The position numbers were made by a program, and so were the translations under genes. DNA of 64,000 bases, taken from contig NZ_CP139301.1 of NCBI RefSeq assembly GCF_034092395.1, positions 682,001 through 746,000 on the forward strand. The letters are read 5' to 3'. The notes below the pieces were generated by a model. That model ran no database searches, was not told the DNA's origin, and saw only the letters and a list, made by a program, of their open reading frames with translations. Shown here in pieces: positions 35,532 to 38,349 of this stretch; position 1 is the stretch's first letter, and each line of letters opens with the position of its first letter. The DNA is from Prochlorococcus sp. MIT 1307 (GTDB lineage: Bacteria > Cyanobacteriota > Cyanobacteriia > PCC-6307 > Cyanobiaceae).

Positions 35532-36632
<1,101 letters not shown>

Positions 36633-36653
36633 AAAGCACACAATCTTCTAACT

Positions 36654-36717
36654 TCTAAAACCTATCAAAAAAAAGCTAGCCCATATGGGCTAGCTTTTTT
36701 TTGATAGGTTTTAGAAA
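36654..36717. terminator. 64-base perfect palindrome, likely bidirectional terminator
   Basis: Every base from 36654 to 36717 pairs with its mirror about the centre between 36685 and 36686. The core is GCTAGCCC-AT-AT-GGGCTAGC with eight A on the left and eight T on the right, continued by CCTATC/GATAGG arms. As RNA it makes a GC-rich stem followed by a T-run in either direction, the form of a factor-independent terminator. It starts 21 bases after the petH stop. Confidence 0.9.
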
Positions 36718-36825
36718 TCATTCAACAAACTTTTTGGGCATCCGACAACAAAGTATGGCGAGATTCCTAAGACCACTTTGAATTTAGTTAATAATTTTTA
36801 AACCAACCCAGGAAGTCTGTGTCCA

Positions 36826-38349
36826 ATGAGCACGCCGACCATAAATCCACTTAGGGTTGGACTACGCCAAGAGCGAGTTATAACTCCACAATGTCTAGTG
36901 ATCTTTGGCGCAAGTGGAGATCTAACTCATCGCAAACTTATTCCAGCTCTTTTCCAGCTTTTTTTACAACGACGTTTGCCAAGTGATTTTGCAATCATTG
37001 GATGTGCTCGACGTCCATGGAGTGATGACGAATTTCGTGAAAGAATGGCTCAAGCTTTAAAGAGAGAAACTAAAAACAATACAAAAGGAGTCACACAATT
37101 TCTGGAATACCTTTTCTATGAATCTGTTGATCTTCAACAGCCTGAAGACTTAATCAAACTAGGGAAAAGGTTAGAAGAAATTGATCGAATCAAGGCTACT
37201 CATAGCAATCGAACCTTTTATCTCTCTGTCTCTCCAAAATTCTATGGAAGTGGTTGCCAAGCTTTAGCCCGTGCAGGCCTATTAAACGATCCAAAACGTA
37301 GTCGATTAGTTATCGAAAAACCATTTGGGCGTGATTACGGGAGCGCTCAAGCCCTTAATCAAATTGTGCAAAGCTCTTGCCAAGAAAGCCAAGTTTTCCG
37401 AATCGATCATTATCTCGGCAAAGAAACTGTTCAAAACATACTGGTAATGAGATTTGCCAACGCCATATTCGAACCAATATGGAATAGAAATTATATTTCA
37501 AGCGTTCAAATTACTGCTGCAGAAACAGTTGGGGTTGAAGAGCGCGCAGGTTACTACGAAAGCTCTGGCGCACTTCGAGACATGGTACAAAACCATCTCA
37601 CACAGATGCTTGCAATAACAGCAATGGAACCTCCTGGACACTTTGATCCAGAAGCTATCAGAAACGAAAAAGCAAAAGTTCTTCAAGCCGCTCATCTTGC
37701 CAATGAACTTGAACCATGGAAATGTTGCGTTCGAGGGCAATATGAAAAAGGTGGGAGTAGGTCTAAGCCATTAATTGGATACAGAGATGAGCCAGGAGTT
37801 AATCCCACTAGCACCACAGAAACATATGTCGCAACAAAGCTGTTCATTGACAATTGGAGGTGGCAAGGGGTGCCTTTCTACCTAAGGACTGGAAAACGGC
37901 TGGCGAAACGATTAAGTGAAGTTGTGCTTACTTTCAGAGAAGCACCTGTTCATCTCTTCGACGCAGCAGGAGGTAGTCCAACTTCCAACCAATTAATCCT
38001 AAGAATTCAACCCGATGAAGGAGCTGAATTTCGATTTGAAGTTAAATCCCCAGGCTCCGGTATGCGGAGTCGTCCGGTAGAAATGGAGTTTTCCTATGAA
38101 GAGTCTTTTGGAGAACCCTCAGACGAAGGTTATGTGAGACTTTTGGCTGATGCCATGCTTGGTGATCCAACACTATTTACTCGCAATGATGAAGTAGAAG
38201 CAGCCTGGCGCTTATATACCCCACTATTAGAGCTAATTGAAGATAGGCCTTGGCAATTGCCTACTTACCCATATGAATCAAGAACCTGGGGGCCGGCTGA
38301 ATCTGATGCTCTTCTAAGCAAAGATGAACTTCTTTGGCGACGTCCATAA
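36826..38349 (+). CDS. zwf: Glucose-6-phosphate 1-dehydrogenase
   Basis: First enzyme of the oxidative pentose phosphate path, making NADPH in the dark. A 507-residue enzyme with the coenzyme-binding FGASGDLTHRKL near the N-terminus, the substrate motif RIDHYLGKETVQN, and the usual family end. Cyanobacterial G6PDH is redox-controlled by thioredoxin through OpcA, which is encoded next. ATG 36826 is preceded by about 190 bases from petH that include the palindrome, so zwf must have its own promoter. opcA starts 37 bases after it. Confidence 0.97.
   Translation: MSTPTINPLRVGLRQERVITPQCLVIFGASGDLTHRKLIPALFQLFLQRRLPSDFAIIGCARRPWSDDEFRERMAQALKRETKNNTKGVTQFLEYLFYESVDLQQPEDLIKLGKRLEEIDRIKATHSNRTFYLSVSPKFYGSGCQALARAGLLNDPKRSRLVIEKPFGRDYGSAQALNQIVQSSCQESQVFRIDHYLGKETVQNILVMRFANAIFEPIWNRNYISSVQITAAETVGVEERAGYYESSGALRDMVQNHLTQMLAITAMEPPGHFDPEAIRNEKAKVLQAAHLANELEPWKCCVRGQYEKGGSRSKPLIGYRDEPGVNPTSTTETYVATKLFIDNWRWQGVPFYLRTGKRLAKRLSEVVLTFREAPVHLFDAAGGSPTSNQLILRIQPDEGAEFRFEVKSPGSGMRSRPVEMEFSYEESFGEPSDEGYVRLLADAMLGDPTLFTRNDEVEAAWRLYTPLLELIEDRPWQLPTYPYESRTWGPAESDALLSKDELLWRRP

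Follow-up and report, generated by a model that had tools for sequence, protein, structure and literature searches.

Why should the space between petH and zwf carry a perfect palindrome of 64 nt, and how could such a structure have arisen? The window, which is the whole 64-kb stretch of DNA analysed, represents bases 682001-746000 of a genome that consists of a single contig of 2,032,419 bases. The palindrome is probably an intrinsic terminator of petH whose arms have been lengthened by template switching during replication.

The palindrome and its surroundings

The features of interest are the following (positions in the window).

35577..36632, plus strand: petH (ferredoxin--NADP reductase), ORF of 351 aa, by family model and Pfam domains
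36653..36716, no strand: perfect palindrome, 64 nt, 32-nt arms, 0 mismatches, no spacer
36653..36666, no strand: left 14-nt extension, outside the A-tract
36667..36674, no strand: A8 tract, a T-tract in the minus-strand reading
36675..36694, no strand: putative terminator core, 8-bp stem GCTAGCCC/GGGCTAGC with ATAT loop
36695..36702, no strand: T8 tract, the U-tract for petH transcripts
36703..36716, no strand: right 14-nt extension, outside the T-tract
36826..38349, plus strand: zwf (glucose-6-phosphate dehydrogenase), ORF of 507 aa, by TIGR00871 and Pfam domains

The original prediction described a 64-base palindrome with perfect, spacer-free 32-base arms, situated between the plus-strand genes petH and zwf. 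The symmetry and the placement are as described, but the position given, 36654-36717, is one base too high: the string found there is not its own reverse complement, and that at 36653-36716 is. Family models support both gene names. The best model for the petH ORF is the cyanobacterial ferredoxin--NADP reductase PetH (553 bits, E 3.1e-166, under the model cut-off of 600), with profile positions 93-411 of 411 covered; the zwf ORF scores 616.5 against TIGR00871, above the cut-off of 400.6, and Pfam domains are consistent with both assignments. By zwf, Prochlorococcus single-cell genomes are the nearest named records; Synechococcus and other picocyanobacteria rank lower (best 80 of 570). The palindrome starts 20 nt past the petH stop and ends 109 nt ahead of the zwf ATG.

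Could the symmetry be accidental? From base composition, about 1e-14 palindromes with 32-nt arms are expected per 64 kb. The runner-up perfect arm within the window is 13 nt (spacer 0-12), and the longest arm in shuffled DNA is 12 nt (single-base shuffles of 20-kb stretches, 20 per genome, six genomes). A chance origin of the 64-nt palindrome is excluded.

Read outward from its centre, the palindrome consists of the ATAT loop, 8 pairs, the A8/T8 tracts and 14 further pairs. Read in either direction, the inner part has the features of a textbook intrinsic terminator: the stem is rich in G+C (6 of the 8 bp are G-C) with a short loop, the T8 at 36695-36702 directly abuts it, and the whole is found at a gene end, just past the petH stop. 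As RNA, the core with six U has a predicted fold of -16.0 kcal/mol, and the whole 64-mer one of -46.7 kcal/mol. A simple consensus scan with stem and loop limits, which is not a defining test, returned 0 sites in 36500-36900. Anatomy and place together make it likely that the palindrome functions as the petH terminator. The 8-bp G+C-rich hairpin would form once RNA polymerase exits petH, and the adjoining U8 tract would release the transcript; the symmetry would suffice for termination in both directions, ahead of the zwf upstream region. Because a polymerase stopping in T8 would leave the outer right arm untranscribed, the outer pairs should not help termination. With 14 pairs past the T-tract, pairing does extend far beyond what a terminator needs, which had been singled out as unusual from the outset. 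The palindrome thus looks like an ordinary type of terminator, uncommon in its overlong perfect arms, and not like a new kind of element.

The petH-zwf slot in related genomes

Is the region past petH a place where terminators are usually found? The petH-zwf slot was read at 110 loci, with petH ends located by a C-terminal motif and not by annotation. Four loci without a recognisable petH end were dropped, and merging of identical slots left 104 and then 103. A hairpin (arm of at least 6, a minimum of 4 G or C in each arm, centre in the first 110 nt) is present in 51 of 104 slots, this genome included, with a median start of 30 nt past the stop; 53 of the 104 have no hairpin under the same rule. 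A run of at least four T lies in the right arm or the next 8 nt in 41 of the 51, a count made without a shuffled control. Terminators of petH thus tend to sit in this slot, though they are not detectable in every relative.

Long perfect arms are rarer. A perfect arm of at least 10 nt was found in 16 of the 103 slots, whereas the 20 shuffled sets yielded 0-2 apiece; arms of at least 15 nt occur in six distinct slots of the 103, the palindrome's own included. Arm lengths in these six are 32 nt (this genome), 28 (L047), 23 (L030), 16 (L044), 15 (L020) and 15 (L027), and their sequence letters are unrelated. In the remaining 97 slots the perfect arm is 11 nt at most.

The nearest relative that has the slot, G004, carries a zwf that is 89% identical. 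No comparable hairpin was found after its petH (best arm 8, at 64 nt), so the petH terminator is not conserved. Spacing is nearly the same in the sister genomes: the distance between the petH stop and the TTGG of the element upstream of zwf is 101 nt in this genome, against 100 nt in G004 and 106 nt in G001. Across the 104 slots the element was found 21 times, 51-125 nt past the stop, with 14 of these distances falling between 93 and 111 nt; this spread, together with the poor alignment among the slots of relatives, limits the argument from spacing.

Noncoding sequence upstream of zwf, at 36731-36786 (TTTTTGGGCATCCGA..ACAAA..ATGGCGAGAT..CTTTGAATTTA), is well matched in the sister genomes G004 and G001; over 61 aligned slots the match is weak, and strongest at TTTTG. 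This sequence is perhaps a zwf promoter or operator.

Long perfect hairpins and the origin of the outer arms

Are palindromes of this length routine in the genome? Perfect hairpins with a spacer up to 20 were counted in 464 kb (23%) of this genome, G000, and in 400-kb samples of five others. Each line below gives the perfect hairpins with arms of at least 12/16/20 nt, then the pairs past the A/T tract in terminator-like hairpins where there are such values, and then the repeats with arms of at least 18 nt and 0/1/2/3 mismatches.

G000: hairpins 25/8/3; pairs past tract 19, 14, 5, 4; repeats 4/4/2/1
G010: hairpins 26/11/8; pairs past tract 6, 5, 3, 3, 2, four 0; repeats 8/5/1/1
G017: hairpins 11/2/1; pairs past tract 4, 2, 0; repeats 1/1/0/0
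G016: hairpins 6/2/0; pairs past tract 0, 0; repeats none
G031: hairpins 8/1/0; repeats 0/0/1/0
G024: hairpins 14/0/0; repeats 0/0/3/0

Shuffles gave 0-2 perfect hairpins per genome, none above 12. Two hairpins in the sample of this genome have 32-nt arms, and the same two hold its extremes past the tract: 19 pairs at L142:1721-1790 and 14 in the palindrome. The original prediction held that equally long palindromes, if common as terminators, would make this one routine. One other gene-end hairpin with 32-nt arms does exist, but it is the only one in 464 kb; equally long hairpins are uncommon in the sample, yet the palindrome is not alone. Of the 11 perfect hairpins with arms of at least 15 nt in the sample of this genome, six sit at the 3' end of a mechanically called ORF or close to it, and five elsewhere.

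Two further observations can be added. The G010 sample (L166-L185) has the most long perfect hairpins among the six genomes. A spacer-free perfect palindrome of 44 nt, at L137:11611-11654, lies within a mechanically called ORF of 653 aa, near the ORF start.

The second 32-nt-arm hairpin offers a hint of how such arms may be formed.

L142:1721-1790 (G000:C1:1701721-1701790): second perfect hairpin, 32-nt arms, 6-nt loop, 19 pairs beyond the tract

It has the design of the petH-zwf palindrome, and a minus-strand ORF of 230 aa has its 3' end 7 nt away. The orthologous G001 site retains the inner stem (AAAAAAGGCGA...TCGCC), but as a short stem with a one-sided tract and no outer pairing. Copying of one flank onto the other by fold-back could have produced the difference. 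A 25-nt insertion was rejected on the distance from stem to gene end, 32 nt in G000 vs 33 in G001. Tests for the template arm gave p 0.2 and 0.85 at this locus, where G000 and G001 are strongly divergent. In the petH-zwf slot, neither arm's match to the G004 or G001 slot stands out (81 to 336 of 500 shuffles were as good).

How, then, would the outer arms have originated? A replicating strand would fold back at an existing hairpin, and one flank would then be copied onto the other (template switching, or 'quasipalindrome correction'), with longer and perfect arms as the product. Perfect pairing beyond functional need is a mark of such a process, and the palindrome has 14 extra pairs of this kind; template switching is the most likely origin of these pairs and the best inference from the data. 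The mismatch counts, made with a scoring that disfavours mismatches and so favours perfect repeats, fit template switching in G000 and G010; the other genomes have too few repeats or depart from this pattern. In three of the six, perfect repeats are not the leading class: the single repeat of G031 and the three of G024 all have two mismatches, and G016 has none.

Did loss of SbcCD, a nuclease that cleaves palindromes, allow long palindromes to persist? This was rejected: an SbcD match is absent in both G010 and G024, yet the former has 11 perfect hairpins with arms of at least 16 nt per 400 kb and the latter 0, which argues that SbcD bears no relation to long palindromes. In G000, SbcC-like and partial SbcD-like matches stand side by side at G000:C1:160027-161466, in frames of 905 and 417 aa and below curated cut-offs. 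The SbcD-like match covers 84 of 252 positions (49.3 bits vs a cut-off of 77.65), and the weak SbcC-like match that adjoins it scores 17.5 bits.

A broader proposal is rather doubtful. Some lineages of the family, such as G000 and G010, might undergo unusually high rates of fold-back template switching, which would repeatedly rebuild terminators, that of petH-zwf included, into long perfect palindromes that extend beyond the T-tract, with gene-end hairpins turning over whole. If the lineage difference holds in whole genomes, the building and renewal of terminators by template switching becomes measurable. The palindrome alone is a minor oddity that would gain modestly in interest should the lineage effect prove real. 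It nonetheless illustrates cleanly how a probable RNA hairpin can exceed, in length and in perfection, what its function requires, and many marine cyanobacteria can be compared at this site.

Alternative explanations and known systems

Could the long outer stem itself be under selection? In read-through transcripts the arms would pair over about 30 bp, and this duplex might be cut by RNase III or another nuclease, separating the petH and zwf mRNAs, or might shield an RNA end. The predicted fold of the whole 64-mer and the recurrence of arms of at least 15 nt in six of the 103 slots speak for this, but the short perfect arms (11 nt or less) of the other 97 and the lack of such a hairpin in G004 make it unlikely. 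A role at the DNA level between petH and the zwf promoter, as a cruciform or as a palindromic protein-binding site, has a low probability. Cruciform formation is physically possible given the perfect, spacer-free symmetry, and an 18-nt outer arm pattern has 17 further places in the genome at 3 mismatches vs 0 for a backward control. With 0-2 mismatches, however, the two arms are the only places in the whole genome; the 464-kb sample has 3 matches besides both arms, where 200 shuffled patterns average 1.1, which leaves little or no excess; and in other lineages the slot letters are unrelated. Slightly less probable still is an artefact of assembly or amplification. Fold-back chimaeras occur in single-cell assemblies, and several relatives are assemblies of that kind, but the window belongs to a single-contig genome rated as 100% complete and 0.19% contaminated, the sequence continues into the zwf upstream region common to G004 and G001, and a second hairpin of the same design is present elsewhere in the genome.

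The least probable explanation is that the palindrome is a relic of a mobile or duplicated element, as the original prediction suggested; nothing else speaks for it. The genome-wide search for the arm sequence that had been proposed found no second copy in the 2.03-Mb single-contig genome (best other match 17 nt, E 0.098, with the site and its reverse reading excluded), which speaks against a repeated element. Insertion of a mobile element is unlikely because a second copy is absent and spacing is near-constant in G004 and G001. Phage records have no match to the 241-nt region at E 1e-5, and a phage origin was rejected on that ground. A known RNA family was rejected as well: 24 Rfam hits were obtained (E up to 5), none at gathering score (best 47.2 bits vs 90, E 7e-8). 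MicroRNA models account for 14 of these, and 23 of the 24 overlap the palindrome, a pattern that a long hairpin would give.

Among the papers listed, from a literature collection with few subscription journals, no title dealt with long perfect palindromes at terminators of Prochlorococcus. The palindrome resembles bidirectional intrinsic (Rho-independent) terminators in its G+C-rich stem, short loop, A-tract before and T-tract after, and in its position just past a stop codon; it differs from them in pairing 14 nt past the tracts without a mismatch. With quasipalindrome correction and template-switch hairpins it shares perfect arms far over expectation, and at the L142 locus the sister genome has a short one-sided stem; unlike them, it has no direct ancestor-descendant pair that could be found. 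New perfect RNA stems are attributed to template switching in the available text of PMC8794818, where stem extension is recognised by an insertion in one half; no such insertion is seen at the palindrome. According to the accessible portion of PMC6060812, which cites van Noort et al. 2003 on this point, mutation appears to carry imperfect repeats towards perfect ones; the same text describes Escherichia coli as poor in arms of at least 13 nt (spacers up to 8), from which an arm of 32 nt sets the palindrome apart. In gene-end position, however, it is like the perfect inverted repeats of that E. coli map and of the 118,019-genome survey (PMC13155455), both of which, in the parts available, find inverted repeats enriched past gene ends and tied to termination.
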